A DNA stretch of 64,000 bases from Nitrospira sp. (GTDB lineage Bacteria > Nitrospirota > Nitrospiria > Nitrospirales > Nitrospiraceae), in assembly GCA_030123605.1 (NCBI GenBank), contig CP126123.1, forward strand, positions 2,336,001 through 2,400,000, in the 5' to 3' direction. Under the pieces are notes generated by a model that did not search any database, was not told where the DNA came from, and was given only the letters and a program-made list of their open reading frames with translations. The translations under genes were made by a program, and so were the position numbers. Below, piece by piece: positions 30,758 to 51,937 of the stretch; position 1 is the stretch's first letter, and the number at the start of each line of letters is the position of its first letter.

Positions 30758-32776
30758 TCAACAACAACCGCCGCCATGCGGCAACCGAAAGACCCGCTCC
30801 GACTCATCCTTCGTAATCGCCGTTTGCATCCGTCCCGGAGAACTCCCCCCCGCCATCGCCACTACTTCGCTACTCGTAAAAGGCTTCTTCAAGATCACAT
30901 ATCCGTACCATTGCTTCGCACTATCGACCAGCACGATCACGCCGAGGATCGCCACCACCGCCACCAGCACCGCATCGAGATAGAGCGCAAAGGCTTGGCC
31001 CGCGCTCAGCGTCGCGGCCTTCTTCATGAACATCCCGAACATCTCATAGGATCCGGCCAGGGTGATCGCGCCGACAAACAGCATCGGCACGGCCGTCACC
31101 CAGAGATACTGCGCCTTCCACATCTTGATCAAGATCGTCGTCCCGATGCAGAGCGCCAACGTCCCCAGCAACTGATTCGCCGCGCCGAACATCGGCCAAA
31201 TCGTGGAGATACTCCCCGTGCCGATCAGATAGGCCCAGGCTCCCACCACGAACCCGCTGCTCACCAGCACGCCGGGCCACCAGTTCATCTGTCGGAACGA
31301 CGCATGGATCCGCCCGGCCATTTCCTGGATCAGATACCGCGCCACGCGCGTCCCCGTGTCGATGGTGGTCAAGATGAACAACGCCTCGAACACCAACGCG
31401 AATTGATACCAGTAGGCCATCAGCCCGGACATCCCCGGCAATGCCGCAAAGATCGAGGCCATTCCCACCGCCAGCGACACCGCCCCGCCGGGACGCCCCG
31501 CCACATCCACCTCGACGAGCTGCGAGAGTTCCTGAATCCGCAAGGTCGGAAATCCCATCGCTCCAAGCGCATCAGCCGGCAACATGGTATTGATCGCCAG
31601 ATAATCGCCAGGGATCAGCACAGACGCGGCGATCAAGGCCATCACGCCCACGAAACTTTCCAACAGCATCGCCGCATACCCGACTACCGCCTGCGACTCC
31701 TGCTCGATCATCTTCGGCGTCGTGCCGGACGATACCAGCGAATGGAAGCCCGACACGGCGCCGCAAGCGATCGTGATGAAGAGAAAGGGGAACAAGGTTC
31801 CGGGAATGATCGGCCCTCCGCCGGACGCGAAGCTGGTGACCCGCGGCATCTCGATCGTCGGCGCCATGAGGATCACCCCGACCCCCAAGAACAGCACCAC
31901 GCCCAACTTCATGAAGGTCGAGAGATAGCCGCGTGGCACCAGCAACATCCAACCGGGCAACACGGATGCCAGAAACCCATAACCGGCCAAGAGCCACACC
32001 AAGGTCGCGCGGTCGAATTCAAACCAGGGTGACAACGACGACTGCGCCACGACCCGGCCGAACAGCACCGCCGCCACCAAGAGTGCGACGCCCAACAGCG
32101 ACACTTCGGCAATCTGCCCAGGCCGAAACTTCTGCAGATAGAAACCCATCAGGAAACCGATGGGAATCGTCATCGCAATCGTGAAGGTCCCCCAGGCATT
32201 GTGGTAGAGCGCGTTGACGACCGCGAAGCCCAAGCCGGCCAACGCCACCACCACGATGAACAACACCGCAACAGCCGTGGCGGTACCGGTGATGGTCCCG
32301 AGTTCGTCATGGGCGATTTCCGGCAACGAACGGCCGTTCCTCCGCATCGAGGCGACCAGGATGATGAAGTCCTGCACCGCTCCCGCCAGCACCGCTCCGA
32401 TCACCAGCCAGAGAAAGCCCGGCAGAAATCCGAACTGCGCCGCCAGGACAGGACCCAGTAGCGGACCTGCACCTGCGATGGCCGCGAAATGGTGACCGAA
32501 CAGCACGACCTTGTTTGTAGGATGGAAGTTCACACCGTCGTTCAGGCGGACGGCAGGGGTCAGGCGCTTGTCGTCCAACTGCACTACACTACGAGCAATC
32601 CAACGGCCATAGAAGCGAAAGGCGAGTACATAGATGCAGGCCGCCGCCACGACGAGCCAAAGCCCGTTGACCTTTTCATGAGGATTCACGAGGCCGGTCA
32701 CATGGGCCAGCGCAACCGCGCCAAGGACCGAAAGAAGCCCCCAGAGGAGGACGAAAAGCATGTTCATGCGCGGCAT
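30758..32776 (-). CDS. cstA: Carbon starvation protein CstA (peptide/pyruvate transporter family)
   Basis: 672-residue polytopic membrane protein with about 16 hydrophobic segments. CstA proteins are induced by carbon starvation and import peptides or, in some bacteria, pyruvate. Family segments: VVLFGHHFAAIAGAGPLLGP near residue 90 and the second-domain segments FPFLFITIACGAVSGFHSLV and FGAANQLLGTLALC. The 672-residue length is close to that of E. coli CstA, and the C-terminal extension is present. It is a single gene with no regulator beside it. Confidence 0.93.
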   Translation of the reverse strand: MPRMNMLFVLLWGLLSVLGAVALAHVTGLVNPHEKVNGLWLVVAAACIYVLAFRFYGRWIARSVVQLDDKRLTPAVRLNDGVNFHPTNKVVLFGHHFAAIAGAGPLLGPVLAAQFGFLPGFLWLVIGAVLAGAVQDFIILVASMRRNGRSLPEIAHDELGTITGTATAVAVLFIVVVALAGLGFAVVNALYHNAWGTFTIAMTIPIGFLMGFYLQKFRPGQIAEVSLLGVALLVAAVLFGRVVAQSSLSPWFEFDRATLVWLLAGYGFLASVLPGWMLLVPRGYLSTFMKLGVVLFLGVGVILMAPTIEMPRVTSFASGGGPIIPGTLFPFLFITIACGAVSGFHSLVSSGTTPKMIEQESQAVVGYAAMLLESFVGVMALIAASVLIPGDYLAINTMLPADALGAMGFPTLRIQELSQLVEVDVAGRPGGAVSLAVGMASIFAALPGMSGLMAYWYQFALVFEALFILTTIDTGTRVARYLIQEMAGRIHASFRQMNWWPGVLVSSGFVVGAWAYLIGTGSISTIWPMFGAANQLLGTLALCIGTTILIKMWKAQYLWVTAVPMLFVGAITLAGSYEMFGMFMKKAATLSAGQAFALYLDAVLVAVVAILGVIVLVDSAKQWYGYVILKKPFTSSEVVAMAGGSSPGRMQTAITKDESERVFRLPHGGGCC

Positions 32777-33236: not shown

Positions 33237-34382
33237 ATGAGCCCGATACCGGTCATTCCACGGTACCTCGCCCTAGAGAGCCTCCTGACAAAGAAGTCTC
33301 ACTTCCTGCTCGGCCCTCGCCAGACGGGGAAAAGCTTCCTCATCGGCCAGAGCCTCACAGGTGCCCGTGTCTACGATCTCCTGGATACGGCCCTGTATCT
33401 CGCCCTCAGCCACCGTCCCCAGCGCCTGGCTGAAGAAATCACGTCCAAGGATCACGTCGTCGTCATCGATGAAATTCAGAGACTGCCAGCGTTGCTGAAT
33501 GAGGTCCATCGCCTCATCGAACAACGCGGCGTCCGATTCCTCCTCACCGGGTCCAGCGCAAGGAAACTCCGTCATGGAGGGGTGAACCTATTGGGCGGAC
33601 GAGCCAGAACCAAGTATCTGCACCCGTTCACCTATCGAGAATTGGGCAAACACTTCAACCTGGACACGTTCATTTCGCACGGAGGGCTGCCGTCCATCTA
33701 CTTCTCCGACGATCCACGCGCCGATCTCGACGCCTATGCCGGCTCCTACTTGCAACAGGAAATCGTCGCAGAAGGCGCAACCAGGAACATCGCGGCATTC
33801 AGCCGATTTCTTAAAGTGGCCGCCTACTGCAATGCCACCATCGTCAACTTCACAAACGTGGCCGCGGATGCCCAGGTGCCGCGCACCACTGTCTACGAGT
33901 ACTTCGAAATTCTCAAGGACACCCTCGTGCTGCATGAACTGCCGGCATGGCGCGAGACGAAGAAGCGCAAGCCTTTGGCGTCATCGAAATACTACTTCTT
34001 CGACATCGGCGTCGTGGCGGCTATTCAAGAACGGCGCTATCGACGCGGCACGCCGGAGTACGGCGAGGCCATGGAAACGTACATCCTGCACGAACTGATG
34101 AGCTACAGGGATTATGTTTCAGGAGAGCCGCTGGCCTATTGGAGGTCGAAGTCGGGATTTGAGGTAGATTTCATCCTCGGAGACCATACCGCCATCAAGA
34201 TGAAAGCCAGCGAGAACGTTGCGGGCAACGATCTCAAATCGTTGAAGGCGTTGGCGGAGGAAGGAAAACTGAAACGTTATCTTTGCGTCAGCCTGGAAAC
34301 TCGCCGTCGCCAGGTCGGCGAAGTGACGATCTTGCCGGTGAAGGAATTCCTGGACAACCTCTGGGATGAGAACTACTCCTAA
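33237..34382 (+). CDS. AAA-type ATPase with DUF4143 domain
   Basis: 381 aa. Walker A GPRQTGKS at residues 26-33, Walker B VVVIDE at 74-79 and sensor-like LLTGSSARKL near 100 define an AAA_14 ATPase. The C-terminal half is a DUF4143 domain (ASKYYFFDIGVVAAI, then YWRSKSGFEVDFIL) whose D...E-x-D-F pattern resembles the PD-(D/E)XK nuclease core. The family is abundant in mobile or strain-variable regions, and its biological role is not established. It stands alone between a broken toxin gene and an IS element. The start is chosen as the first ATG in frame; the ribosome site is weak. Confidence 0.88.
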   Translation: MSPIPVIPRYLALESLLTKKSHFLLGPRQTGKSFLIGQSLTGARVYDLLDTALYLALSHRPQRLAEEITSKDHVVVIDEIQRLPALLNEVHRLIEQRGVRFLLTGSSARKLRHGGVNLLGGRARTKYLHPFTYRELGKHFNLDTFISHGGLPSIYFSDDPRADLDAYAGSYLQQEIVAEGATRNIAAFSRFLKVAAYCNATIVNFTNVAADAQVPRTTVYEYFEILKDTLVLHELPAWRETKKRKPLASSKYYFFDIGVVAAIQERRYRRGTPEYGEAMETYILHELMSYRDYVSGEPLAYWRSKSGFEVDFILGDHTAIKMKASENVAGNDLKSLKALAEEGKLKRYLCVSLETRRRQVGEVTILPVKEFLDNLWDENYS

Positions 34383-34481
34383 CCTTTCCGAAGGGTCAAA
34401 AGATTTCCCGCCAGCAGAGGAGCCAACAATGAACGACATCACGAGGCAATCCTCTTTATAGAGGGTAATCGGAAGAACCGT

Positions 34482-34571
34482 GAGCAACCTAGTCGATCTC
34501 CTGTGCTCGCGCAACGCGCGGCCTCAAAAGGCCCTCGTTGGACGCGCGCAGTGGGAGACCAACTAGGCCGC
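34482..34571. repeat. Palindromic intergenic repeat, copy D
   Basis: About 90-bp imperfect palindrome just left of the IS630 element. Outer arms CCTAGTCGATCTCC (34488-34501) and GGGAGACCAACTAGG (34553-34567) are inverted. The inner arms carry GCTCGCGCAACGCGC and TTGGACGCGCGCAGTG, and the centre is a perfect hairpin GGCCT-CAAA-AGGCC (34520-34533). Same family as the copies at 30643 and 36405. Confidence 0.75.
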
Positions 34572-34616
34572 CCCTGGAGAAGTGGCAGCGCAAAAGCTCG
34601 GAGGGTGCATTTGTAT

Positions 34617-35686
34617 GTTACTCATAGGTCAGTAATATAGACAACAGTCTCTGGATGTGTGCTACTCCGTCTCGCGATGAAGCGAGACGGACGCACCCTC
34701 GAGCACGGGACCTTGGAGACCATCCGCACGATGGCCGTGGCGCGTGTGCGCGAGGGTGAACGTCCGAGCGAGATGATCGCCAGTTACGGGTTTCATCGCT
34801 GCACGATTTACAGCTGGCTCAAGGCGGCCCGCGGTCGAGGCCGGGGACTCAAGGCGTTGGCGGCACGCCCGGCGACCGGTCGCCCACGGACTCTGACCGC
34901 GGCGCAGGAACGGCAGGTGTGTCGCTGGATCAACGGCAAGACCCCGCTGCAGTACGGGTTCGATTTTGGACTGTGGACCCGCCAGATCGTGCGCGAATTG
35001 ATCGTCCGGCGATTCGGCGTGCGCCTGAGCCTGGCTTCGATCGGGGCGGTGCGGGCGCGCCAGGGACTGACGCCGCAGAAGCCGTTGCAGCGCGCCTACC
35101 AGCGCGAGACGTATCCGGCGATTGCGCGCACAGCCAAGCGGGACAAGGCCGAGATCTCTTTCTGGGACGAGTCCGGCTTTCGTGCCGATGCGGTGCAAGG
35201 CACGACCTGGGGTGCCAAGGGCCAGACCCCGGTGGGGTCGGTCCCAGGCCAGCGCCAGGGCATCAGCGCCGCCTCGGCGATCAGTTCCAAGGGGGCGTTC
35301 TGGTTCGCCACTTATTCTGGTGCATTGACCGGCGCGCTGTTCGTGGACCTGCTGCGCCGGATGATGCGCGGACGCCGCAAGCCCCTGCATCTGATCCTCG
35401 ATGGATTGCCAGCCCACAAGACCCGCGCGGTCAAGGAATACGTCGCGGGGCTCGACGGCAAGCTGACCGTGCATTACCTGCCCGGCTATGCCCCAGACCT
35501 CAACCCCGATGAGTTGGTCTGGAGCCATGCCACGCGTACCGGCCACGCACGCCGGCCGCCGCAGAACGGCGAACGTCTGGCCGACCGCATCACCGCGCAA
35601 CTCGCCGAGATGGCGCGCCGCCCCGCACTCGTCCGCTCGTTCTTCAGCCATCCCAGTGTTGCCTATATTTCTGCCTGCTGAGTAAC
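34617..35686 (+). mobile_element. IS630-type insertion sequence, apparently complete
   Basis: About 1,070 bp with one intact transposase gene and terminal inverted repeats of 30 bp at 34617-34646 and 35657-35686, matching at 24 of 30 positions. Both begin GTTACTCA, and both end in ATATAG(A/G)CAACA. IS630 elements insert at TA, but I cannot point to an unambiguous TA duplication at both ends. It separates the ATPase gene and repeat D from the HNH nuclease gene. Confidence 0.85.
34677..35681 (+). CDS. IS630 family transposase
   Basis: 334-residue DDE transposase. The N-terminal helix-turn-helix region (ERPSEMIASYGFHRCTIYSW) binds the inverted repeats. The catalytic triad lies in SFWDESGF, LILDGLPAHK and DLNPDELVW, all intact. 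The frame is complete; its stop lies inside the right inverted repeat. I chose ATG 34677; a GTG at 34659 in the same frame is an alternative. GC-rich codon use differs clearly from the AT-richer HNH gene next to it. Confidence 0.93.
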   Translation: MKRDGRTLEHGTLETIRTMAVARVREGERPSEMIASYGFHRCTIYSWLKAARGRGRGLKALAARPATGRPRTLTAAQERQVCRWINGKTPLQYGFDFGLWTRQIVRELIVRRFGVRLSLASIGAVRARQGLTPQKPLQRAYQRETYPAIARTAKRDKAEISFWDESGFRADAVQGTTWGAKGQTPVGSVPGQRQGISAASAISSKGAFWFATYSGALTGALFVDLLRRMMRGRRKPLHLILDGLPAHKTRAVKEYVAGLDGKLTVHYLPGYAPDLNPDELVWSHATRTGHARRPPQNGERLADRITAQLAEMARRPALVRSFFSHPSVAYISAC

Positions 35687-35696
35687 GCGGTGTAAT

Positions 35697-36179
35697 GTGA
35701 AGGCCGATGACGGATCGCTAAATCAACAGTCGGAGTCACGACTGCGCGACGCAATGGAGCACCTGCACGCGTCAGACAAAGAGCGCGAGGTTCTTCAACG
35801 TACCGAACAGAGGTTGTTAAGAGCGCATTTATTTGGCAAGGAATCGACAGGGGAGTGTGGAATCTGTGGGCATAGATTCCCCGTGAATCTGTTAATCGCG
35901 GCTCACATTAAGCCCAGATCTCGATGCACCTCAAAAGAAAGAAACGATTATCGAAACAATGTCATGCCCATATGCAAATTCGGCTGCGATGATTTGTTCG
36001 AGAAAGGCTATGTAACGGTCCGCAATGGAAAAGTGACAACGCCATATCGGCCTTCTGGCTCGAAAACCACCACTGTGAGTAAATACTTGAAAGCACTTGC
36101 GGGCCTTCCTTGCAAATACTGGCAATTGACGAGCATGCCGTATTTCAATTGGCACGATGAACACACCCCAAGAAAATAA
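35697..36179 (+). CDS. HNH endonuclease, possibly 5'-truncated by the IS element
   Basis: 160-residue HNH-type nuclease. The zinc and catalytic core is CGICG...LIAAHIKPRSRC...NVMPICKFGCDDLFEKGYVTV, with two C-x2-C-like pairs and the His of the AAHIKP motif. The ending TSMPYFNWHDEHTPRK follows a short basic linker. Homologous HNH proteins usually have a longer N-terminal domain, and the GTG start lies only 11 bases from the IS630 end with no good ribosome site, so the real 5' part may have been lost. The gene is visibly richer in A and T than its surroundings, which suggests transfer. It may derive from a restriction system; no methyltransferase is nearby. Confidence 0.75.
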   Translation: MKADDGSLNQQSESRLRDAMEHLHASDKEREVLQRTEQRLLRAHLFGKESTGECGICGHRFPVNLLIAAHIKPRSRCTSKERNDYRNNVMPICKFGCDDLFEKGYVTVRNGKVTTPYRPSGSKTTTVSKYLKALAGLPCKYWQLTSMPYFNWHDEHTPRK

Positions 36180-37521: not shown

Positions 37522-39162
37522 TCATGAGCGACGGTCGGCTCCCCCGGCCGATAGGGCGGGAGATGGTCTGACCCGTTCGTAGATCTGATAGCGGCCTATT
37601 TGAGAGATCAGACGAACCTGCCCCATTTCAACGATGGCCTTGTATATGCCGGCTCGACGCCCGAACTCGCCGATCACGACGTAATCTGGATCTGCAGCCA
37701 ACGCGTCATAGGGCAGAGTGAGTTCCGGTTCCCATCCTCTCTTAATGATCCCGATATCCAGTTCCGCCGGAGGGTAGTGATAGGGGCCGGGAAGCAGAAA
37801 CAACAGCTCGCTCTCGTACGTTTCGATCAGGGCATCGGCCGGCACTCGGCTCTGCAGAAATTCGACGGCCTGATAAAATGTCGCCCCATCCTCACGACCG
37901 CGGAAATCATACCGTGCCTGCACCGTCATTCCCATGATGAGGACGATCAGAATCACGACCGACACCTGTCGTATCCGGACTGCTCCTCCCCACCCGGCTC
38001 GGATGAGCGATCCGAGAGACGTGACCAGGGCACGAACGTCATATCCTTGGCTCCATTCGCACAGGAGCGCCGCGACGAACGGCGCAGCCAGAAACCACAG
38101 AGGAAAGGCATACCGTTCCCCGCCGAGAGAGAGCGCCGTGAACCATCCGTACCAGCCGAGCGAGAAGGTCAGCAGCATCGTACGGACAGCATCGATGAGG
38201 CCGATCGGAGCTTGGCCACGCCACCGCGTCACCATGCCACCGGCCGCATAAGCCAATCCGCAGACTGTAGGCAAAAGGTGGGTGACGGTAAAGACGAGGG
38301 CTTCGAGTCGAACCATCGGAACCAACACGATCGCTGACACTTGCAGGAGCCCCTGCATGGGCGGCATGGCCATCGTATGACCCTGCAGCAGCATCACCTT
38401 GAGCCACCCCAGGAGGGAAAAAACCGTCCATGAACCGACCGCCGCGCTTCCCAGCCACTTGACGAGGCCCCATTCGCGCCGCCACAGGCTCAGCAGGATC
38501 GGCACCGCCAACGACAGCATCCAAAACGGACGGACCTGTAATTTGGTGAACAACGCCAGTCCCCAGCAACCGACGACCCCCACCCACCAGGCCCTGTGCC
38601 GTTCGACCAACAGCAGGCAGACGAAACCGGCCAAGAGAAAGCACACCATGGGCATTTCTCCCAAGACCTGACGGCCCAGAATGAGCGGATGCATTTCCCA
38701 GCCGGGAGGGAAAAACAGTACGAGCACGAGAGCTCCGACAGCGACCTTGTGGTTGTAGAGTTCCACAGTCAGGTAGTAGAGCAGGCTCAACGCACCGAAT
38801 GCATAGAGGAGTTCCACGAGCCTCGCCTGCCAGATGCCGATACCGAACAGACGAAAGCCCGCCGCAATAGACGCGACCACTGGGAAATGTCCCGCCAGCA
38901 GCGGCGGAGCAGGCTGTCCCTTCAGAAGGCAGCCATAATGGCCTGTTTCCACCCATTGCCGCGCCACACAGAGGGTCCAGCCCTCATCCCACCAGGGAGG
39001 AGGCGTGATTTCCAACTCAAACGCACCCATGATGAGCGCCGACAGGACCAAGAGCCATCCGACGCCGACCCGTGCGATGCTCGTCATAGATCCAGGCTCG
39101 TCATACCGGGTATCGATAAGAGGAAAGGAACGGAAGGATTTCCGCGATGTCTCATGGGTCAT
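37522..39162 (-). CDS. GT39-like polytopic glycosyltransferase
   Basis: 546 aa with about ten to twelve transmembrane helices and a periplasmic C-terminal part. The first external loop has PPPWWDEGWTL, the acidic motif typical of GT-C enzymes (ArnT, PMT) that use polyprenyl-phosphate sugars. The ATG overlaps the FkbM-gene stop as ATGA, so it is the last gene of the operon. A role in adding a sugar to the exported glycan or lipid is inferred. Substrate unknown. Confidence 0.82.
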   Translation of the reverse strand: MTHETSRKSFRSFPLIDTRYDEPGSMTSIARVGVGWLLVLSALIMGAFELEITPPPWWDEGWTLCVARQWVETGHYGCLLKGQPAPPLLAGHFPVVASIAAGFRLFGIGIWQARLVELLYAFGALSLLYYLTVELYNHKVAVGALVLVLFFPPGWEMHPLILGRQVLGEMPMVCFLLAGFVCLLLVERHRAWWVGVVGCWGLALFTKLQVRPFWMLSLAVPILLSLWRREWGLVKWLGSAAVGSWTVFSLLGWLKVMLLQGHTMAMPPMQGLLQVSAIVLVPMVRLEALVFTVTHLLPTVCGLAYAAGGMVTRWRGQAPIGLIDAVRTMLLTFSLGWYGWFTALSLGGERYAFPLWFLAAPFVAALLCEWSQGYDVRALVTSLGSLIRAGWGGAVRIRQVSVVILIVLIMGMTVQARYDFRGREDGATFYQAVEFLQSRVPADALIETYESELLFLLPGPYHYPPAELDIGIIKRGWEPELTLPYDALAADPDYVVIGEFGRRAGIYKAIVEMGQVRLISQIGRYQIYERVRPSPALSAGGADRRS

Positions 39163-40031
39163 GACACGCGATAGGCATAGAGCATGATGTTTTGAAACCG
39201 GTCACGAGCGTACAGCGGCATACAGACCGCGTCCACCTGGTAGTCGAACCCCTGCGTCTCCAGCATGCTCAGGAAGGACCCGAGCTTGGCCCGTTCGCCG
39301 CCGACCTTGTGATGGAACTCGATCAACAGCTCCCGCACCCTCTTCAGCCGTCCCGTGGTTACAAGATCCTGCAACACGGCATCTTCAGCGCCTTCGACAT
39401 CGAGTTTGAGAAAGTCGATGTCCCGATCCGGCAGCTGTCGGCCGATCATCTCCGAAAGCGCAAGGGTCTCGACGGTGATCGTGTCTTTCGGCATGCGTCG
39501 ATAATTGAGACTCATGCGTAACGACCCGGGGACGGCATGATCGACGTGGAAGTCGGCCGTCCCGGTCTGGTCGGACAGCGCCACATTGTAGAGCTGCACC
39601 CCGGTCAAGTGATTCGCCTCGACGTTGCGTTTCAACAGGGCGAACGTCTCCCGATCCGGCTCGAACGCGAAGACCTCACTGCCCGGGTACAGCCATTTGA
39701 AGAAGAGCGTGGCCAGGCCGATGTTGGCCCCGCAATCGAAGATCACCGGACTCTCTTTAGACGTCTCGAAATAATACTCGTTGCGCAAGAGGATCACCCT
39801 GAACAACAGGTGCATGGTGCGATAGTCGAAACATTGCACCCCAAAACCCCACACCTTCTCATGTGTGATCGGCCGGAACGGATGGACGAGCAGCAGCTTC
39901 GTGCTCACACGCACATAGGTCAGGAGGATCTGCGCCTTGACCCGCAGGGAGAAGCGGCCCCGCACCAAATAGGGGGCAAACATCACCGTATCGAAGCAGA
40001 CTTCCAGGAAAAACCAGACACCTCTGTTCAT
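39159..40031 (-). CDS. FkbM family methyltransferase
   Basis: 290 aa. The AdoMet-binding segment is VIFDCGANIGLATLFF, then SEVFAFEPDRETFALLKRNV, and the family segment DIDFLKLDVEGAEDAVLQDL is clear. FkbM-type enzymes O-methylate sugars or other hydroxyls in natural products and surface glycans. Position inside the glycan operon supports methylation of a glycan residue; the acceptor is unknown. A hydrophobic N-terminal third precedes the catalytic domain. Confidence 0.88.
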   Translation of the reverse strand: MNRGVWFFLEVCFDTVMFAPYLVRGRFSLRVKAQILLTYVRVSTKLLLVHPFRPITHEKVWGFGVQCFDYRTMHLLFRVILLRNEYYFETSKESPVIFDCGANIGLATLFFKWLYPGSEVFAFEPDRETFALLKRNVEANHLTGVQLYNVALSDQTGTADFHVDHAVPGSLRMSLNYRRMPKDTITVETLALSEMIGRQLPDRDIDFLKLDVEGAEDAVLQDLVTTGRLKRVRELLIEFHHKVGGERAKLGSFLSMLETQGFDYQVDAVCMPLYARDRFQNIMLYAYRVS

Positions 40032-40044
40032 CGTCTCCCACTAT

Positions 40045-41376
40045 TCATACCGAGGTCGGAAGCCGTTCGAACGTCAGATTGTCGGCCTCCGCGTCCTGTG
40101 CTTGCATCGTTCCGGGAATGAGCAACGGCGCACAACGGTAGATCGCGACGGTCACTGCTCTCTCTCCATGCCGAGTCAGCAAGGCATCCTTCACGCTCGA
40201 CCAATCACCGAACCACTGCGCATTGGGAAACAGGGATTTCAAGTCCTGCGGCTTCAAGCCCGGCGACAAGACCATCAGATGGCGCTGTTTTCGGCGGATC
40301 AACGTAGCTACCGTCCGCAGTTTCTCGAACGGACGGTCCAGATCGGCGAGGCGAAAGTGGCGGAGACGCCTGGCGATGCGCGACCAGAGCGGGCTCGCCA
40401 CCGGAAACAGCTCGTGGGTGCCCATGCCGAGAGGGCAGGCGGCGATCACGACCTGGGAGGCGCCCCGCTCCGCATGCTCGACCGGCCACATGCCACGATC
40501 CTGCGCGAATTGCCAACTGGTGTCGAAGGGATACAGATCGGCCACCACGACGTTCGCCTGAGGCGGCAACGAGACCCCGTACATCCGTTGCGCCGCGCGG
40601 ACGCCTGTTTCATGTGCCGAGACCACGTCACCCACAAACAGGCCGCTGATCTGCCGCCGGTGATTGAGGGTGACGTTCGCGATACAATCGAGCCCCACCT
40701 TCCTGGCCACCGCCACCATATCCTGCCGCAGTTCCGTGTGGATGGAGCCGCCACGTTCACGCGACCCGCGCAGGTAGTCGTGCATCATCCTGGTCGTCTC
40801 CACGCCACAGACCGCCGGGAGAATGATCTTCGCACCGCCGGAAAAGCCCGCCACCGGATGGGGATAGATACAGCCCACTCCGATCTTGAGGTCGCACTCC
40901 ATCACGGTCCGGTTGATCCGGATCGGTATGCCGCCCGGAGATTGCCCCATATCCACCAGGTCGCCACGGCTGTCGTGGGCCACTACCCTGATCGCGGGCG
41001 GAAGGCCCGCACCAACCTTCTTCACCATCTCCTCGGTGGAGGCAGGAGGATGCGTCCCTCCCGCCAGCAGCACCGTGATGGCCTGCACAGGCAAACAGCC
41101 GCGCGTCAACTCATCGATGAGCAGGGGAAGCAGATCGGCAGCAGGCGTCGGCCTGCTGAGGTCATCGACGATGATGACCGCCTTGGTCCTGCGTTTGGCG
41201 AGTTCCGAGAGCCTCGGCGTTCCGATCGGCCGACTCAAGACCTCGTACATCGCTTCCACCGTCAACGCCGGCCGATCCTGAGGGCCGACCTCGACGATGT
41301 TCCACGAGGGAGGGAAATCGATCGCCAAAGTTTCATCTCCGAACCAGGCCTTTGTACGCAGGAGCACTTCACTCAT
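40045..41376 (-). CDS. LarA-family (DUF2088) racemase/epimerase homologue
   Basis: 443 aa, full length for the lactate racemase family. LarA uses a covalently attached nickel-pincer nucleotide. Residues equivalent to the Lactobacillus plantarum catalytic and cofactor positions (His108, His174, Lys184, His200) are present at H109 (LAGGTHPP), H173 (IYPHPVAGFSGG), K183 (GGAKIILP) and H199 (MMHDYL). The N-terminal VDDLSRPTP motif is also kept. The protein should therefore be active if the cofactor is made. Its start overlaps the upstream GT2 stop (ATGA), tying it to the glycan operon. Substrate could be a 2-hydroxyacid or an aldonic-acid type group; this is inference. larB, larC and larE are not in the window. 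Confidence 0.85.
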   Translation of the reverse strand: MSEVLLRTKAWFGDETLAIDFPPSWNIVEVGPQDRPALTVEAMYEVLSRPIGTPRLSELAKRRTKAVIIVDDLSRPTPAADLLPLLIDELTRGCLPVQAITVLLAGGTHPPASTEEMVKKVGAGLPPAIRVVAHDSRGDLVDMGQSPGGIPIRINRTVMECDLKIGVGCIYPHPVAGFSGGAKIILPAVCGVETTRMMHDYLRGSRERGGSIHTELRQDMVAVARKVGLDCIANVTLNHRRQISGLFVGDVVSAHETGVRAAQRMYGVSLPPQANVVVADLYPFDTSWQFAQDRGMWPVEHAERGASQVVIAACPLGMGTHELFPVASPLWSRIARRLRHFRLADLDRPFEKLRTVATLIRRKQRHLMVLSPGLKPQDLKSLFPNAQWFGDWSSVKDALLTRHGERAVTVAIYRCAPLLIPGTMQAQDAEADNLTFERLPTSV

Positions 41377-42287
41377 GACTTGGATTCCATCCTATAGGAA
41401 TCGGCTGGTCGTTCGACGGAAACGCCGGTCGCACCCGACACGGTTTTTGTTCCTCTCCACAGCTCCCAGAGGAATCCGACGGCCTGACATTTCTCCCCGA
41501 TCCAGAACAGCCAGAAATGCCGCTTGTTGTGGAATCGTCCCCAGTCGAACGGCCCGAATAATTTCTCCCACAGGGCTCTGCCCCATCGCGGATCGGCTTT
41601 CCTACCGGCCCGCCCCCATAAAAGACTGTCTTGAGGAATGATCCCGCTCCTATCCGCTCGCATCACGCGAAACAACCTCGCGATGCCCGCCCCTCGCTGA
41701 AACGAATGGCGCAGGTGTTGTCCGACGTTCGCCTGACGCAGATGCGCGACTGGAACCGGGACGTAGACCACCCTTGCTCCGCGTTTGCGCAATCGCCAGA
41801 TCAGCTCCCAGTCTTCACCTGATCCGGCAAAGGAGGGATTGAAGACATAGCCGTCGTCCCGCATGCAGGCATCCAACCAATCGCGCTTGATCAAAAGGTT
41901 GCCCCCGTTACCGACCAATCCTCCCGGATCCAACTGCTCCATGGTCGGCAACGGATTGCGCCGACGGATGGCGTCCAAGAGCGGATCGGTTTCTTGGAAC
42001 GTACCGCCCGCCGCGGCTGCATCATGGCGATCCAGCGCCGCGATCAGCCGCTCCAGCCAGTCCTCTGGCGGAATCCCGTCGTCATCGGCGAACGCAATCA
42101 GGTCTCCGCTCGCCTTGGCAATCCCTTCATTTCTGGCCCAAGCCACGCCGCGTCGTTGCTGATCGACGACTACGATCACTTCATCCGGCTGCCTGGTCTG
42201 TTTCGCCAAGGCCGCCCGGCACAATGTCAATGTGTCGCGTCCCAGGGTGGGGATGACGACCGAGACTGTGTGTCGCTCGACAGACAT
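41373..42287 (-). CDS. Family 2 glycosyltransferase
   Basis: About 304 aa. GT-A fold start VSVVIPTLGRDTLTLCRAAL. The metal-binding acidic motif is IAFADDDGIPPEDWLERL, and the C-terminal SGEDWELIWRLRKRG matches the ED catalytic-base region. Inverting transferase adding one sugar from a nucleotide donor in the cytoplasm. I chose ATG 42287 (MSVERHTVS); another ATG two codons earlier is possible. Its stop overlaps the LarA-like gene. Confidence 0.88.
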   Translation of the reverse strand: MSVERHTVSVVIPTLGRDTLTLCRAALAKQTRQPDEVIVVVDQQRRGVAWARNEGIAKASGDLIAFADDDGIPPEDWLERLIAALDRHDAAAAGGTFQETDPLLDAIRRRNPLPTMEQLDPGGLVGNGGNLLIKRDWLDACMRDDGYVFNPSFAGSGEDWELIWRLRKRGARVVYVPVPVAHLRQANVGQHLRHSFQRGAGIARLFRVMRADRSGIIPQDSLLWGRAGRKADPRWGRALWEKLFGPFDWGRFHNKRHFWLFWIGEKCQAVGFLWELWRGTKTVSGATGVSVERPADSYRMESKS

Positions 42288-42298
42288 GATCACACCAT

Positions 42299-43843
42299 CT
42301 AATTCAACGCCACGGCCTTAAGCCTGAGTAACAGCGGCTCGACGCAACGAAACATCGGTTCTCCCACCTGTCGCAAGACGCCCGGCAAACTCTGCACCAT
42401 CGACTCGACTTCTTCGACCTTCAAGAGCCCGAGCCAAAACACTCCGCCGCCGTACACCATTGTGCCGATCAGCCCCCCTACCATGATCGACAGCAGCGGC
42501 ATCGGGAACAACGCCGCCGCCCCGGCAACAGCCACACCGGTTCCCAACCAGAGACCGATCAATCTGGAAGCCGGAAATCCTTCGAACATGTGAACCTGTC
42601 GGCGATGCAGAATCCAGACATAACCAAGGGCTACCAGTGCGAAGGACATCGAGGTGGCCGCTGCAGCACCGGCAGCTCCCCAGGCCGGAACCAACGCCAA
42701 GCAAAGCCCTGCATCCACCAGGACGATCGCGCCCATGACCCGAATCAAATGTACCGCCTCACCGCCGGCTTGAATCACCGGCCACATCACGCGCGCCAAA
42801 GCGAAACAGAAGGCCCCCGGCACCAACAGCCGCAATCCCAGGATGGCTTCTGAGAATGGAGGCCCGAAATACAGCAGGATGATGTGGTCCCCCAAGACCG
42901 AGACCAGCAGGAGCAGGAACGATGTCCCGAGCACTACGTACCGCACGAGCCGACTCACCAACCTCGTCACTTCCTCCACCCGTTGCTCGGCCCAGAAACG
43001 GGCCGTCGCCTGCAACATCACGCCTTCGACCGCAATCGGGATAAACCAGACGAATTGCGACCATTGGACTGCCGCCGCATAGAGACCGGCTTGCGACTCC
43101 CCGGCCAAGTGTCGAACCAGGATGACATCGAGCGAACACAAGGCCATGTTCAACACCGAAAAGACCATCGCCGAAACTCCGAAATGCAGCATCGCTCCTG
43201 TGGGCGGAGACACCACATGATCCGGTTGCTCACGCCCGGCCACGTCGAGCGCCCGCACGGCCGACCGAAGACAGACAACCGCCACGAAGAGATTCGCCGT
43301 CAAGAGTCCGGTGAAGACACCCACCACCCCCATGCCGCCCAGGGCCGACGCCACGCCGAGCACTCCCGCCGTCATGACTCCGATGATAGCGGGAATCGCC
43401 GCCCGTTCCTCCTGCCGGAGACCATAGAGGATCCCGCGGGCGTAGAACCAGATCTGATCGAACAACAACACCGCTACCACCACGAGAGCGATCGGAACGG
43501 CGTCAGCCCATCGAGGGGCGGTACTCACGATCAGCAGCCCCACGGCGAAACCGACGACGATCACTCCCGTTCCATTGATGAGGGCGCCGGCCCCTGCCAC
43601 TGCTCGGCACCAAGGCAGATCGTCGGGCCGTTCCGCGATGCGTTTGGTCATGGTCTGCATCATGCCCACGTTGGCGAACTGAGAGGCGAGCAGGAGCAGG
43701 GCCAGGTAGTAGGCATATTGGCCGTAACCCTCGATGCCGAGAAAACGAGCCAGGACAGGCAACAGGAGCGCCGAGGTCGCCATCTTCGCGATCGACCAGC
43801 TCCCGACCCATACAATGCCTTTAGAGACCGCTTTCGCCGACAT
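42299..43843 (-). CDS. Wzx-type polysaccharide flippase
   Basis: 514 aa, with 12 to 14 transmembrane helices and the polysaccharide-synthesis fold of MATE-like flippases (start SAKAVSKGIVWVGSWSIAKM, then ALLLPVLARFLGIEGYGQYA). It should move an undecaprenyl-linked glycan unit across the inner membrane. I see no Wzy polymerase with certainty, so the product may be a short glycan or capped lipid. It lies among the glycosyltransferase genes and 62 bp downstream of a GT4 gene. Confidence 0.88.
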   Translation of the reverse strand: MSAKAVSKGIVWVGSWSIAKMATSALLLPVLARFLGIEGYGQYAYYLALLLLASQFANVGMMQTMTKRIAERPDDLPWCRAVAGAGALINGTGVIVVGFAVGLLIVSTAPRWADAVPIALVVVAVLLFDQIWFYARGILYGLRQEERAAIPAIIGVMTAGVLGVASALGGMGVVGVFTGLLTANLFVAVVCLRSAVRALDVAGREQPDHVVSPPTGAMLHFGVSAMVFSVLNMALCSLDVILVRHLAGESQAGLYAAAVQWSQFVWFIPIAVEGVMLQATARFWAEQRVEEVTRLVSRLVRYVVLGTSFLLLLVSVLGDHIILLYFGPPFSEAILGLRLLVPGAFCFALARVMWPVIQAGGEAVHLIRVMGAIVLVDAGLCLALVPAWGAAGAAAATSMSFALVALGYVWILHRRQVHMFEGFPASRLIGLWLGTGVAVAGAAALFPMPLLSIMVGGLIGTMVYGGGVFWLGLLKVEEVESMVQSLPGVLRQVGEPMFRCVEPLLLRLKAVALN

Positions 43844-43905: not shown

Positions 43906-45015
43906 TCAGGCCGCAAACCGTTCGTACTGTTGCTTGTGAGCAGCCAAGGCCTTGGAGGTCTCGTACGTCTCGCGTACATATTCGTAGGCGGTCCGCCCTT
44001 TTTCCAGCGGTCCGTCCGCGAGGAGGCTTCGGATGGCCGACGCATAGTCGTCATCCTGAACCTGTTTTCCGAACCGACTGGCGAACTGGTCCGGATCGAC
44101 CCGGCTGATGATTGGACAGCCGTAGGCCGCCGCTTCCAGAAATGTCAACGGAAGCCCCTCACGCACCGCCGTGCTGACGAAGATCCAGGTGTCGGACAAA
44201 ATCCGATGCATACGCTCCGGCTCACGGAAGCGGTTGATGAGCCCCGGCATCTCAAGGTTCGGCACATCGCGAAACCGCTTGCGCAATTGCGCGTCGAAGC
44301 CGGATTCCGCCGAGGCACTGCCCTGCCCCACCGCCACGAACCGATAGTCCGGGAACTGCTTGGCCAGTTCCAGGAAGATCCAGGGCCGCTTGCGTTTGTC
44401 CCAGCGAGCCACGAACGTCATGGTCGGACGCGTATTTTTCTGCGGAAGGACGGCGGGCACATCGATGAGATTCGGCAGCAACGTCGGCAAGGTCGCCAAC
44501 CCATACAGACGTTTGACCTTCTCTTTCAGGAAATGCGCCGGACAGAAGACCCCGTCGGCTCGACGCACCGCCTGCCGTACGAACAGACCGGACTCGGTAA
44601 AATAGTTGAAGGGGGTCAAGAGCCGGCGCATTGGCGTCGCATAACGAAATTCGATCCACCAGTCATGCCATTCTCTGGGATCGCGACTCGTGACAAGATG
44701 AGTCCGACGTGGATGGAAGCGTTGGGCCAGATAGGTCAACAGGGTCGGGTCCTGGGAATGAAAAATATCCGCCGACGAGTCTCGAATGATCCGGAAGGCC
44801 TCAACGACATTCCGCGGCGAGAAACTCCGAACCTCGACCCCTCCGATCGTTTCGATCGGCCGTTGACCGGGACGGCCCGGAACGATAACGCTGACCCGGT
44901 AGCCCGACAGGACGAGACTTTCGGCGAGCTTCCTCGACATGCTGCCGAACCCACCATAAATCCCCCAGTCGAAATACTGGCTGGTCAGGATACAGACGTG
45001 GGGTGGTCGCTTCAT
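43906..45015 (-). CDS. Family 4 glycosyltransferase
   Basis: 369 aa, GT-B fold. N-terminus VCILTSQYFDWGIYGGFGSM carries the typical open-sheet start with a glycine loop. The C-terminal donor-binding half includes TMTFVARWDKRKRPWIFLEL and VREGLPLTFLEAAAYGCPII, the E-x7-E retaining motif region. The ATG at 45015 overlaps the preceding GT4 stop as ATGA. Sugar and acceptor unknown. Confidence 0.88.
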   Translation of the reverse strand: MKRPPHVCILTSQYFDWGIYGGFGSMSRKLAESLVLSGYRVSVIVPGRPGQRPIETIGGVEVRSFSPRNVVEAFRIIRDSSADIFHSQDPTLLTYLAQRFHPRRTHLVTSRDPREWHDWWIEFRYATPMRRLLTPFNYFTESGLFVRQAVRRADGVFCPAHFLKEKVKRLYGLATLPTLLPNLIDVPAVLPQKNTRPTMTFVARWDKRKRPWIFLELAKQFPDYRFVAVGQGSASAESGFDAQLRKRFRDVPNLEMPGLINRFREPERMHRILSDTWIFVSTAVREGLPLTFLEAAAYGCPIISRVDPDQFASRFGKQVQDDDYASAIRSLLADGPLEKGRTAYEYVRETYETSKALAAHKQQYERFAA

Positions 45016-46229
45016 GTCCGAGGTTCCTTGCGCCAATCACCGCCGATCTCCACGGCTGACCGACCGGGCACCGGCTGACCCGCCGGCGCCATGAGCCGAG
45101 CGCAGAGGTCGAGATACCGTGTCGCCAACGCCGGCCATCCGAACTGCATCGCCCGTCGCCGACTCTCCATCCCCATCTGCCGGCGGCGGCCCTCCGCGTC
45201 TAATAAGTTATGCAAGGCACGGGTCAGTGCCGGAACATCCGCCCAGGGCACGATCTCGCCGTTCTCACCCTTCGTTACCAATTCGGCGGTCCCTCCCGTG
45301 TCGGTTACGATAACGGGCAGGCCGGATGCCATCGCTTCCAGCAACGCAATGGACATGCCTTCCTGTTGCGACGGCAGGACGAAGACATCGGCCTCCCGGT
45401 AGACGGACGGCATTCGTTCACGCGAGACGAAGCCCATGAAGGTCACGGCATCGGCCACATGCAGGCGGTCGGCCAATTGCCGCAACTGCGGCTCGGCATC
45501 CCCTGTCCCCACGAACGTCAGCCTCAGCGGTTGCGTACAGCCGGCCCGCAATCGCGCGAAAGCCTCCAGAAGATACTGCTGCCCCTTGCGTTCGATCAAC
45601 CGCGCGACACAGACGATCGTGAACACCGGTTTCGATTCGCCAGATGCGGGCGCAAACAGAGTCGTGTCGACGCCGTTCGGAATGGTCACGAGATTCAAGT
45701 CCGGCATCGTGCGATGCGCCAATTGTTCCTGCTCCTCGCTGATGGCGGTCACGGCCCCCGCCCGCCGCCAGATCTGTTTGATCAGGGGCGTCAACACCGG
45801 ATAGAGATAGTCATAGCGCGCCTCAAACCACGGCACATCCGGCCCCTGCAGCGACAATACGTAGGGCAATCCGTGCGTGAGCCGCAGCAGGCAACTGATG
45901 GCGCCGGCCGGCACGCCGGCAAAGGCGAAACTCAGGTCATAACGATGTCGTGTCACCAATCGTCGCGCCAGATGCAACCCGCGTCGGCCGTAGCGGAGCA
46001 GCTCGCGGTTGGTCGCATGGTGGATGTTGCGATTATCGACCGGCACCTTATGGATCGTGATGCGCTCGGCAAACCGTTCGGTTTCATAGGTCGTCCGACT
46101 GCGCGAGGAAGTGACCAGATCGACAGTAACCTCCGGGCGCTGCGCCATCTCCTGCAAGAGATGGAAATTCACCACCCCGGTGCCGCCGCCGAGCGGAGGA
46201 AACTCGTTATCGAACATGAGGATGCGAAT
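45012..46229 (-). CDS. Family 4 glycosyltransferase with uncertain, possibly ATT, start
   Basis: About 405 aa GT-B enzyme. The N-terminus reads IRILMFDNEFPPLGGGTG, and the C-terminal motif EGMSIALLEAMASGLPVIVTD is intact. Start choice is difficult. A strong ribosome site GAGGAGA overlaps the stop of the upstream GT2 gene and lies seven bases before an ATT codon (46229) that begins exactly where family proteins begin. In-frame ATGs are at 46262, inside the GT2 gene with no ribosome site, and at 46217, inside the first beta strand. I give the ATT position as most consistent, with low certainty. Confidence 0.8.
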   Translation of the reverse strand: MRILMFDNEFPPLGGGTGVVNFHLLQEMAQRPEVTVDLVTSSRSRTTYETERFAERITIHKVPVDNRNIHHATNRELLRYGRRGLHLARRLVTRHRYDLSFAFAGVPAGAISCLLRLTHGLPYVLSLQGPDVPWFEARYDYLYPVLTPLIKQIWRRAGAVTAISEEQEQLAHRTMPDLNLVTIPNGVDTTLFAPASGESKPVFTIVCVARLIERKGQQYLLEAFARLRAGCTQPLRLTFVGTGDAEPQLRQLADRLHVADAVTFMGFVSRERMPSVYREADVFVLPSQQEGMSIALLEAMASGLPVIVTDTGGTAELVTKGENGEIVPWADVPALTRALHNLLDAEGRRRQMGMESRRRAMQFGWPALATRYLDLCARLMAPAGQPVPGRSAVEIGGDWRKEPRT

Positions 46230-46233
46230 GGCG

Positions 46234-47397
46234 TTATCTCCTCGTAACGCGGCGGGCGACATAGAGCGGGCGGCGTTTGACTTCGTCGGAGATCCGGCCG
46301 ATGTACTCGCCGATCACCCCGATCGTCATCAACTGAATGCCGGCGAGAAAGAAAATGGAGACTACGAGCGTGGTGAACCCCGGAACACCGACTCCCATCG
46401 TCACTTTCTTGATGACATAGATCATTGCGACCAAGAATGACAATGCCGAAACGGTAAAGCCCACGATCGTGATGACGCGCAGCGGCATGTGACTGAACGA
46501 AATCAAACCGTCGAGCGCGAGATAGAGGAGTGTGCGGAAGGTGTATTTCGGACTTCCGGCATGACGCGCCTGACGCTCGTAGGGAAGCCCGATTTGCTTG
46601 AACCCCACCCAGCTGCGGATACCTCTGACGAATCGATTGCGTTCCGGCATCCCGACCAGGAGATCGACCACGCGCCGGTCCATGACACAAAAATCACCGG
46701 CATCCAACGGGATGTCGATGTTGGCCACCCGCTGCAACAGTCGATAGAACCCGGCATAGGCCAGCCGCTTCCCCCACCATTCTTTGCGTTGAGTTCGGAC
46801 GGCATAGACCACTTCCCAGCCTTCTTGCCACTTGGCCAGGAACTTGTGCAACACCTCGGGCGGATCCTGAAGGTCGGCATCCATGATACAGACAACACGC
46901 CCGCGACTATGTTCCAGGCCGGCGCTGATCGCGACTTGATGGCCGAAATTTCTGGCAAACTCCACGACGACGATCCGACGATCCTCGACTTCCAGCCGCC
47001 GCAAGATATCGGGGCTCCGGTCCTGGCTCCCGTCGTCGACAAACACGATTTCGTAATCGAGTCCCAGGTCGTTCAGCGCGGCGGTGAGGCGGACCTGCAA
47101 CGCCGGAAGGTTCTCGGCTTCATTGAAGACCGGAATGACGATCGACAACGTCGGCGGTGGTGCGAACTCGCCGACCTGCGCCACCACAGCGGCACGGTGC
47201 GTCGGCTGAAGTCGCCGTCCCTCGACATCCGAGGCAAGCTCCATCGCCGCGGCCAGGGTTCGGCAGAATTTCAAGGCTTCTGCAGGATCCTCCAACGGAG
47301 GCAGCAGACGCTCGCCGGTTCGTTTCGCGCCTGCCATGCTCGGCGCTTCCTTATCGGCCCGCTGACCCTGGAAATCAGGATAATTCGGTCGTTGCAT
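46234..47397 (-). CDS. GT2 polyprenyl-phosphate sugar transferase with membrane anchor
   Basis: About 387 aa. A roughly 80-residue N-terminal extension precedes a DPM1/GtrB-like domain: LSIVIPVFNEAENLPAL, EIVFVDDGSQDRSPDIL, the D-x-D of CIMDADLQDPPEVL, and GDFCVMDRRVVDLL. Two transmembrane helices close the protein (about residues 310-375). Such enzymes make undecaprenyl-phosphate sugars that GT-C transferases use, which fits the GT39-like protein of the operon. The start at 47397 is set by GGAGAGAG upstream. Confidence 0.9.
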   Translation of the reverse strand: MQRPNYPDFQGQRADKEAPSMAGAKRTGERLLPPLEDPAEALKFCRTLAAAMELASDVEGRRLQPTHRAAVVAQVGEFAPPPTLSIVIPVFNEAENLPALQVRLTAALNDLGLDYEIVFVDDGSQDRSPDILRRLEVEDRRIVVVEFARNFGHQVAISAGLEHSRGRVVCIMDADLQDPPEVLHKFLAKWQEGWEVVYAVRTQRKEWWGKRLAYAGFYRLLQRVANIDIPLDAGDFCVMDRRVVDLLVGMPERNRFVRGIRSWVGFKQIGLPYERQARHAGSPKYTFRTLLYLALDGLISFSHMPLRVITIVGFTVSALSFLVAMIYVIKKVTMGVGVPGFTTLVVSIFFLAGIQLMTIGVIGEYIGRISDEVKRRPLYVARRVTRR

Positions 47398-47590: not shown

Positions 47591-48586
47591 TCAGTCGAGA
47601 GAGAGGGAGCGATCGGCACCCTTCGTCACGATCGCCAAACAGGCAAGCCCCAGCACAATCCAGACAAATTCCCGAAAGCGCCGCAACAGCGCAAAGGTAA
47701 TGCCGGTCACATCGTCGTACCCGAACGTGGTCAGTAAGAACAGATTACCCGCATCCTGAGCGCCCAAACTGCCGGGGATGAAAAAGGTGCCGCCCTTGAT
47801 GAATACCGACAAGGCTCCGATCGCCACGGCTGACAGCACTGTAATGGGTTGCCCCAAGCACAGCACCATGACGAACACCTCTACAGCCTCGGCCAGCCAG
47901 CCGAGGAGAAAGAGCCCGGTCGATAACAAGAAGGCCGATCGCCGATGGCTGTAGAAGTGGGCGATGGTGCGATCCAATTCGAGCAGTTTCTGTTCACGTG
48001 ACTCCAGGAACTGCAGCCGCACCCCGATGATGCGCAGGACCTTCAGGATCCATGAAAACATGCCGTGCCGCTGCACGACGACGAACGCACCGACCCCGAA
48101 CAGCAGCAGCCCCACGCTGACCAATCCCGCCGTAATGGTCTGCCCGGCCGATCCACCGGAGCCCAACAGCCAGAATCCCAAACCGATCCCGGCCAGGATG
48201 AAGAGAATCTGGGCGATCGTCATCGTGGTTTTGGCCGTCACGACCGACGCCAACCCTTCCACCAGCGGCACTCCCTGCCGTTTGAGAAGAAACGCCTTCA
48301 GCGGTTCGCCACCCACGTAGGCCGTAGGGGTGGTCATGTTCACGACTTCCCCGGCGGTGCGAATCGCCAGGAGCCGCCAAAACGGCACATCCTCCGCCCA
48401 AGCGCCGAGCGTCACGCGCCAGCCGTAGGCTTCCAGCACATACATGAAAAGAGAAGGCAGGAGGATCGCCAGCATCGCGGCAGGGCCGAGTTGCGCCACC
48501 GCCCCATAAATACGATCGATGCCGATGTGCCAGACCAGTACCGAAAGCGTCAGCGCCCCGAGAAGAAAGAGAGCCGCTTTAAGCAC
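47591..48586 (-). CDS. Flippase-like membrane protein (lysylphosphatidylglycerol synthase TM family)
   Basis: 331 aa with about eight transmembrane helices, PF03706 type. The catalytic GNAT domain of MprF is absent; this is the membrane half alone, which in MprF moves lipids. Family segment TPTAYVGGEPLKAFLLKRQG and the C-terminal SLGAQDAGNLFLLTTFG are clear. It overlaps the end of the CDP-alcohol transferase fusion gene by eight bases, so it may move that enzyme's lipid product across the membrane. That role is inference. Confidence 0.82.
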   Translation of the reverse strand: MLKAALFLLGALTLSVLVWHIGIDRIYGAVAQLGPAAMLAILLPSLFMYVLEAYGWRVTLGAWAEDVPFWRLLAIRTAGEVVNMTTPTAYVGGEPLKAFLLKRQGVPLVEGLASVVTAKTTMTIAQILFILAGIGLGFWLLGSGGSAGQTITAGLVSVGLLLFGVGAFVVVQRHGMFSWILKVLRIIGVRLQFLESREQKLLELDRTIAHFYSHRRSAFLLSTGLFLLGWLAEAVEVFVMVLCLGQPITVLSAVAIGALSVFIKGGTFFIPGSLGAQDAGNLFLLTTFGYDDVTGITFALLRRFREFVWIVLGLACLAIVTKGADRSLSLD

Positions 48587-50033
48587 GGGCGCGTGCCGAA
48601 GGTCTGATGACCCACACCATCAACGACCAAAACACCGTCGAACCGAGCGCAGCGATCCACAAAAACCAGTCGAGTCTGTCCAGTAAGGCGAACAGCAACA
48701 CCACCACGGAAAAATCCCGGCTCGCCACGTTCTTCAGGATAAAGTCGGACCAGGCCGCCTGCTTAGGGGTGCTCCAGCCGCGGGCGGCGCCGATTTTTTG
48801 CGCCTTCGTGACCAGCCAAAACGACAGAGCGCTACCGAATACTGCCGCACCGCCCAGCGCCAACGGAACCCAGGCGCCGGCCTCGCCGGCCTGCCGCAGG
48901 TAGGCCCCACAGGCGATCCCGGCGAAGATGGCGATATGCACCACATTGTCCATGGCGATATCGAGCCAGGCACCGAAGGGCGATTCCGTAAAGGTCAGCC
49001 GCGCCACCTCACCGTCGCAACAATCGATCACGGCCGCCAATTGAAACAACAACGCGGCGACGATCCCGGCTTGATAGGTACCGAAACCGAACCAGGCGGC
49101 GGAGAGCAGCCCGACCGTCGTGGCGATCATGGTGATCGCGTTGGGAGAGCATTTCATCCGCAAAAAGACCCTCGTCAACAGACGCGAGAAGGTCCGATTG
49201 AAATACCGGTCGACCAATCCCTCCGACTCACCCTTGAGCGAGCGGAAGAGCGTACCTTCTGCAAGGCCGGCACTCGGCTGGTCCCACACGTCGCGATACC
49301 ACAAGCCGGCATGGGAGGCGGCCGTGACGACCCGCACGCGTCCCTCCGCCGCGGCCCGTTCCAGCCAACGTCGCACGGGAATCATGCCCAGGGGCTCCGT
49401 TCGCCCCCCGATCGCAGAAACCGCCGTCCCGTTCAGAGGATTCAAAATGCTCGCCGGCAACACGACCAAATCCGCCGCCACCTGGTGGCCTTCGTACCCG
49501 GTTTGATTGTGAAAGGAAATGAGGCGGCCTTCCTGAAGCGCGACCGCCGGGTTCCGTCGGCCCACGGCCGGTTCGATAGGACCGGCTGCGCGGGTCACCA
49601 CTAACGCCTCTCCGTCACGCACGGTCTGCCGCAGGTGTTCGATCAATCCTTTGGAAAACACCGCCTGCACCCCGGCGATCAGACAGAACCCCCGCACCTC
49701 GGCGGCCAACGACTCCCACGTACGCGGATCGTCGAGCGGAAACTCTCGCACCGGCATCCAGCGAACGGGAATCGTGACGCGTGCCCCCCGCGCCAACGTC
49801 TGTTTGAGCAACTCTTCATCGGCACCGGCCAGCACGATCAATTGGCGAAGGCCCGCCCGTTGCAATGTGAGCACGGTGCGTTGAAATAGGCTCAGCCCTC
49901 CGATGCGCGTCAGCGGCCCCACGTCGGTAAGGCCGCGTCCGAGCCGGTCTCCGAACAGCCCCGCACCGGGCAACAGAATGGCCGTGCTCAACCCCTGTAG
50001 TTCGGCACCGCGTTCCAGTGTGCTTTCACTCAT
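48579..50033 (-). CDS. Fusion: nucleotidyltransferase-like domain + CDP-alcohol phosphatidyltransferase
   Basis: 484 aa. Residues 15-235 resemble a sugar-nucleotidyltransferase (AILLPGAGLFGDRLGRGL, IGGLSLFQRTVLTLQRAG), but the usual GxGxRxxPxT loop and metal aspartates are not clear, so this half may be degenerate. Residues 290-480 are a membrane CDP-alcohol phosphatidyltransferase with the full motif D337-x2-D340-G341-x2-A344-R345-x8-G354-x3-D358-x3-D362. The architecture resembles archaeal bifunctional inositol-phosphate cytidylyltransferase/phosphotransferases. Here, next to phosphonate-type genes, the transferase could use a CMP-activated phosphonate. An inositol-type headgroup is the alternative. 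Confidence 0.82.
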   Translation of the reverse strand: MSESTLERGAELQGLSTAILLPGAGLFGDRLGRGLTDVGPLTRIGGLSLFQRTVLTLQRAGLRQLIVLAGADEELLKQTLARGARVTIPVRWMPVREFPLDDPRTWESLAAEVRGFCLIAGVQAVFSKGLIEHLRQTVRDGEALVVTRAAGPIEPAVGRRNPAVALQEGRLISFHNQTGYEGHQVAADLVVLPASILNPLNGTAVSAIGGRTEPLGMIPVRRWLERAAAEGRVRVVTAASHAGLWYRDVWDQPSAGLAEGTLFRSLKGESEGLVDRYFNRTFSRLLTRVFLRMKCSPNAITMIATTVGLLSAAWFGFGTYQAGIVAALLFQLAAVIDCCDGEVARLTFTESPFGAWLDIAMDNVVHIAIFAGIACGAYLRQAGEAGAWVPLALGGAAVFGSALSFWLVTKAQKIGAARGWSTPKQAAWSDFILKNVASRDFSVVVLLFALLDRLDWFLWIAALGSTVFWSLMVWVIRPSARARA

Positions 50034-50052
50034 CAGACTCAGTCCCGCGAAG

Positions 50053-51860: not shown

Positions 51861-51937
51861 CAGCAGACTCCGTTCCTCATGGCAAGTCGCTTGTGAAGCG
51901 CAGAGCGTGGCACCGGCGGCGCGTCACGAACGACACA

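Follow-up and report, generated by a model that had tools for sequence, protein, structure and literature searches.

Why does a Nitrospira genome encode a homologue of LarA, a nickel-pincer nucleotide (NPN) enzyme, amid genes for surface-glycan assembly? To our knowledge, every NPN enzyme whose substrate has been assigned works on a free hydroxyacid from central or sugar-acid metabolism. We analyzed a 64,000-nucleotide stretch (the window) of Nitrospira sp. contig CP126123.1, positions 2,336,001 to 2,400,000 of the forward strand; the host genome, G000, is complete in one contig of 4.3 Mb, and those of its close relatives that have names all belong to Nitrospira, Nitrospira defluvii among them. 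An earlier note on this sequence had placed a LarA-like protein inside a glycan operon, and the sections below take up what that protein is, how firmly it is tied to its neighbors and what it may do there.

A full-length LarA homologue outside the characterized subfamilies

The LarA gene lies on the minus strand (40045..41376) and encodes 443 amino acids; the plus-strand frame across 40045-41376 is not the gene, a point on which the earlier note, giving no strand, was silent. Its identity is drawn from the open reading frame, a Lar_N match, residue alignment and fold prediction. The Lar_N domain (PF09861/IPR048068) is matched at 164 bits against a curated Pfam cut-off of 23.3, and dN/dS values of 0.11-0.21 in the genomes retaining the gene reveal purifying selection, which argues that this match is not due to chance. 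The homologue is full-length. In the predicted model (mean pLDDT 74) the two-domain LarA fold extends over the entire length, and comparison with 8ezf gave a Z score of 37.7 across 383 residues with an rmsd of 3.5. The protein thus resembles LarA of Lactiplantibacillus plantarum and Thermoanaerobacterium (PF09861, PDB 5huq, 8ezf) in its whole-length fold and in having equivalents of D72, R75, H108, H174, K184 and H200.

The catalytic residues of LarA are D72, H108, H174 and K298, and R75, K184 and H200 serve the cofactor (PMC7583248). The earlier note had assigned H109, H173, K183 and H199 to such positions, and alignment to the L. plantarum protein bore this out: R75, H109, H173, K183 and H199 align with R75, H108, H174, K184 and H200, and these five together with D72 are invariant in all 20 aligned cassette LarAs. 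All of the LarA-family NPN ligands (R75, K183 and H199) and three of the four catalytic residues (D72, H109 and H173) are therefore kept in 20/20 relatives. The fourth position, K298, is occupied by Arg (R294 here) next to a one-residue insertion in every one of the 20, and Y294 and Q295 are replaced in all 20 rows as well, Q295 reading as Ala or as Phe according to the alignment used. The earlier note had overlooked the changes at K298 and Q295. Lys is kept at the K298 position in the relatives from G314 and G063. In Isosphaera pallida LarA, the carboxylate is held by R73, H107, H173, Q295 and K298 (PMC11851776), and LarA homologues without K298 may run other hydride chemistry (PMC7583248). 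Judging from these residues, we expect the cassette LarA to bind the cofactor and carry out hydride chemistry in an altered pocket.

No NCBIfam LarA subfamily cut-off was reached by the cassette LarA. The protein scored 197 of the 460 bits set for the lactate racemase equivalog (NF033504), 223 of 500 for malate racemase LarAH6 (NF052593), 176 of 462 for LarAH5 (NF052595), 162 of 540 for LarAH10 (NF052525) and 34 of 500 for LarAH18 (NF052594). Since the protein falls under every named cut-off, has Arg at K298 and has lost Q295, neither lactate nor malate is likely to be its substrate. Like lactate racemase LarA, it would be expected to depend on LarB, LarC and LarE; unlike that enzyme, with which it shares 26% identity in a structural alignment of the predicted model, it differs at K298, Q295 and both residues after H174 and is encoded outside a lar operon, inside a glycan cassette. 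Malate racemase Mar2 (LarAH6, PDB 6d6z) is its best match among both NCBIfam families and PDB profiles, but the Mar2 loop residues Y172/K173 correspond to P174/V175 and the gene context differs. Single-histidine LarA homologues of Blautia and Streptococcus (PDB 9q3j, 9q3k) share with it a proposed link to carbohydrate chemistry, carbohydrate metabolism having been proposed for that subfamily (PMC12611868). Those proteins lack the second catalytic histidine and are encoded beside glycolysis and sugar uptake genes, whereas the cassette LarA has both histidines and glycan assembly neighbors; the presence of H173 in 20/20 sequences excludes it from the single-histidine subfamily. The cassette LarA belongs to a subgroup of the LarA superfamily without a characterized member.

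NPN biosynthesis genes occur with and without LarA

The earlier note expected NPN binding and pointed to larB, larC and larE as genes to look for elsewhere in the genome. All three are present over curated cut-offs, larC at G000:C1 2548772-2549902, larB at 2550681-2551301 and larE at 3510645-3511415 of the same contig, and together with the conserved ligands they support the predicted binding. The three genes were found in all 26 genomes tested, 11 of which have no Lar_N protein at all. Given their presence with or without LarA, we regard them as permissive and have dropped them as specific support for LarA function.

The genomes that carry larB, larC and larE without Lar_N are G004, G005, G006, G007, G014, G016 (where larB is partial), G029, G030, G033, G039 and G040. 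The NPN machinery of these 11 Nitrospiraceae genomes is thus orphaned; orphan NPN genes without LarA have been described before (PMC11796402).

LarA sits in a surface-glycan cassette of fixed gene order

The cassette runs along the minus strand and opens with a GT2 glycosyltransferase resembling PgfS and ArnC, a relative of polyprenyl-phosphate sugar transferases (46234..47397; its start codon is uncertain, the open reading frame beginning at 47502). Two GT4 glycosyltransferases follow (45012..46262 and 43906..45036, the latter the best conserved gene of the cassette), then a Wzx-type polysaccharide flippase (Polysacc_synt, 42299..43843), a further GT2 directly upstream of LarA (41373..42293), LarA itself, an FkbM-family methyltransferase that is present in some cassettes only (39159..40031) and, as the last gene, a GT39-like glycosyltransferase (37522..39162). 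The GT2 stop and the LarA start share four bases (ATGA), an overlap repeated in most relatives, so the overlap and the downstream FkbM and GT39 genes are as first described, with the proviso that the PMT_2 match of the GT39-like gene is just below the curated cut-off. This last gene comes in two divergent types among relatives. In its Wzx, GT2, GT4 and GT39-like genes, all in one direction, the cassette resembles Wzx-dependent surface polysaccharide clusters; unlike those in the literature we found, it adds an NPN-type isomerase. Within the cassette there is no obvious enzyme for activating or attaching a hydroxyacid and no gene for acid-sugar biosynthesis.

The insertion site is bounded on the left by a gene for an HpnL-like protein with a flippase domain (47591..48586, minus strand), which is conserved whether or not the cassette is present, and on the right by cstA (30758..32776, minus strand), which some genomes lacking the cassette have directly beside the HpnL-like gene.

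LarA and the cassette are gained and lost together

Counting the window's genome, 22 Nitrospiraceae genomes have this LarA, and in 22/22 it lies inside the cassette. With larB, larC and larE present and the neighborhood conserved, neither of the two findings that the earlier note named as refuting was made. The other 21 proteins are 58-91% identical to that of the window. Nitrospira defluvii is among the species with LarA and the cassette. The order Wzx, GT2, LarA, optional FkbM and GT39-like is the same across the 22 genomes, and the ArnC-like GT2 and two GT4 genes stand upstream wherever the contig is long enough; no GT2 was called in the G011 cassette. Where LarA is missing, the rest of the cassette is mostly missing as well, the two being jointly absent from G004, G005, G014 and other genera. 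The HpnL-like gene and cstA are adjacent in G004 and G030, and a few unrelated genes separate them in G005, G014, G029, G033, G037 and G040. In the cassette-free genomes whose flanks were compared, the cassette GT4 was not found elsewhere.

In two genomes, G006 and G007, LarA is reduced to its first 24-33 codons, while none of the other obligatory genes of the cassette is missing. The remnants have the same junction, suggesting, as the simplest reading, a single deletion in their common ancestor. Since LarA alone was deleted there, it is separable from glycan assembly as such, and it looks like an optional tailoring step.

Beyond these genomes, a scan of genome contigs gave matches in Nitrospira alone, viral contigs yielded no relative, and plasmids yielded 17 distant LarA relatives, all of which cover less than 80% of the query; the six plasmid relatives inspected were not beside glycan genes.

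A wider set of Nitrospirota LarA relatives lies in glycan loci

A profile search over 395 Nitrospirota genomes recovered LarA relatives in few genomes beyond the cassette holders. In a tree of these proteins, a branch with 100/99 support separates the cassette LarAs, three sequences of group g10, G314 and G336/G280 from the lactate racemases. The long-branched G246 sequence falls on the cassette side as well, and the tree gives no firm order for the fork beneath that branch. With the exception of G246, all LarAs on this side are in loci with glycan genes. The G314 gene directly follows a GT2. In G336 (L173:5183-16113), a run in one direction reads larE, larB, larC, a gene with no Pfam match, ACP, LarA, acyl-AMP ligase, PMT, O-antigen ligase and Wzx, and in G280 LarA lies between ACP and acyl-AMP ligase genes with a polysaccharide deacetylase nearby. 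The G336 locus thus has the NPN genes themselves within a glycan locus.

The g10 LarAs (L073:6002-11335 of G063, and also L072 and L057) adjoin ComA, ComB, ATP-grasp-like, acyltransferase and FemAB genes. ComA and ComB are established in coenzyme M synthesis, where they make (R)-3-sulfolactate, a 2-hydroxyacid, and sulfolactate is therefore a natural candidate substrate at these loci. In the g10 proteins Gln takes the place of the second catalytic histidine, which makes simple racemization uncertain. It is possible that these loci encode a sulfolactate isomerase together with a sulfolactate-decorated polymer. ComA was found in 22 of the 395 Nitrospirota genomes and accompanies a LarA of the cassette clade only in the three g10 genomes, a single lineage, so we rejected it as a general partner of this clade. 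Sulfolactate was likewise rejected as the substrate in G000, as ComA is absent there and from every other tested genome of its genus.

Taking these loci together, we tentatively propose a Nitrospirota LarA clade for surface-glycan biosynthesis. Its members may set the stereochemistry of hydroxyacids that decorate exported polysaccharides: 3-sulfolactate beside ComA/ComB, an ACP-loaded hydroxyacid beside acyl-AMP ligase and ACP, and another in Nitrospira.

What the cassette LarA may do

Its specific tie to a surface-glycan cassette makes a glycan role the best reading for LarA. On balance, we favor an NPN-dependent isomerase of the LarA superfamily that probably inverts the alpha carbon of a 2-hydroxyacid to give a dispensable tailoring element for a surface glycan exported through Wzx. 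NPN from LarB, LarE and LarC would be loaded onto LarA, which would abstract the alpha hydride of the 2-hydroxyacid and return it on the opposite face, with H109 and H173 as the acid-base pair by analogy with the family. Candidate substrates are small hydroxyacids and acid sugars in their open form. One of the cassette transferases would attach the product to the repeat unit, which Wzx would then flip. Speaking against this reading are the lack of obvious activation, attachment or acid-sugar genes in the cassette and the replacements at K298 and Q295.

A variant in which the hydride chemistry acts on a nucleotide- or lipid-linked sugar, for instance by carbinol epimerization or another isomerization, in place of free 2-hydroxyacid inversion, strikes us as rather unlikely. 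The location among glycosyltransferases without an acid-activating gene and the lack of conservation at K298 and Q295 speak for it, as do papers proposing that non-canonical LarA homologues catalyze different hydride reactions and take carbohydrates as substrates (PMC7583248, PMC12611868). However, R75, H109 and H173 are invariant, and their equivalents grip the carboxylate in I. pallida LarA (PMC11851776); Arg could substitute for Lys298, and relatives of LarA sit beside genes that make or activate hydroxyacids. A metabolic racemase of lactate, malate or glycerate whose cassette location is incidental is improbable: LarA relatives of that type exist, and their gene neighborhoods can mislead about the substrate (PMC7583248), but the linkage holds in 22/22 genomes, LarA came and went with the cassette, and its scores are far under the lactate and malate racemase cut-offs. 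That the gene is decaying and without function is barely credible despite the deletion of LarA in one lineage, given its dN/dS and invariant active-site residues.

The genes upstream raise another alternative, a LarA step in phosphonate metabolism, for example on phosphonolactate, which we consider very improbable. The window encodes a split Ppd-like decarboxylase, a PhnW-like (2-aminoethylphosphonate) transaminase, a nucleotidyltransferase and a CDP-alcohol phosphotransferase at 48579-53010. Elsewhere in G000 (G000:C1:1434217-1435029) there is a PEP mutase with the EDKLFPKTNS motif, whose C-terminal part resembles the nucleotidyltransferase of the window, and the combination makes 2-aminoethylphosphonate synthesis likely. 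The pathway genes are, however, conserved across Nitrospira species more widely than the cassette, and they persist in relatives that lack both LarA and the cassette. They are therefore a unit separate from the LarA cassette, and a phosphonate role was set aside as the main reading. Of the glycan operon first described, the tie between LarA and the surface-glycan cassette stands, while the neighboring phosphonate genes fall outside it.

The preferred reading, hydroxyacid inversion for a surface glycan, suggests that rare NPN chemistry determines the chirality of an acid unit in the sugar coat of Nitrospira cells. The earlier note knew of no such glycan-modification route, and we found none either: term searches in the text of five LarA papers (PMC7583248, PMC11770544, PMC11796402, PMC11851776 and PMC12611868) turned up no discussion of a link between LarA and glycosyltransferases, and a literature search on LarA with polysaccharide or O-antigen gave nothing relevant. 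If correct, this would be the first NPN enzyme in glycan building, as far as the literature searched shows, and a glycan-linked LarA branch would extend the NPN cofactor to cell-surface assembly. It would also yield concrete substrate candidates for the clade and point to hydroxyacid surface decorations on major nitrite oxidizers, for which the natural LarA-deletion lineage (G006 and G007) offers a ready comparison.

Mobile genes near the cassette

Between the cassette and cstA, the window holds genes for a DUF4143 AAA ATPase, a DDE_3 transposase and an HNH protein (33237-36179), marking a spot of mobile-gene insertion. In L136 (G018) and L124 (G006), a different island of unrelated genes directly follows the HpnL-like gene. 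The site after the HpnL-like gene seems to be an insertion hot spot.
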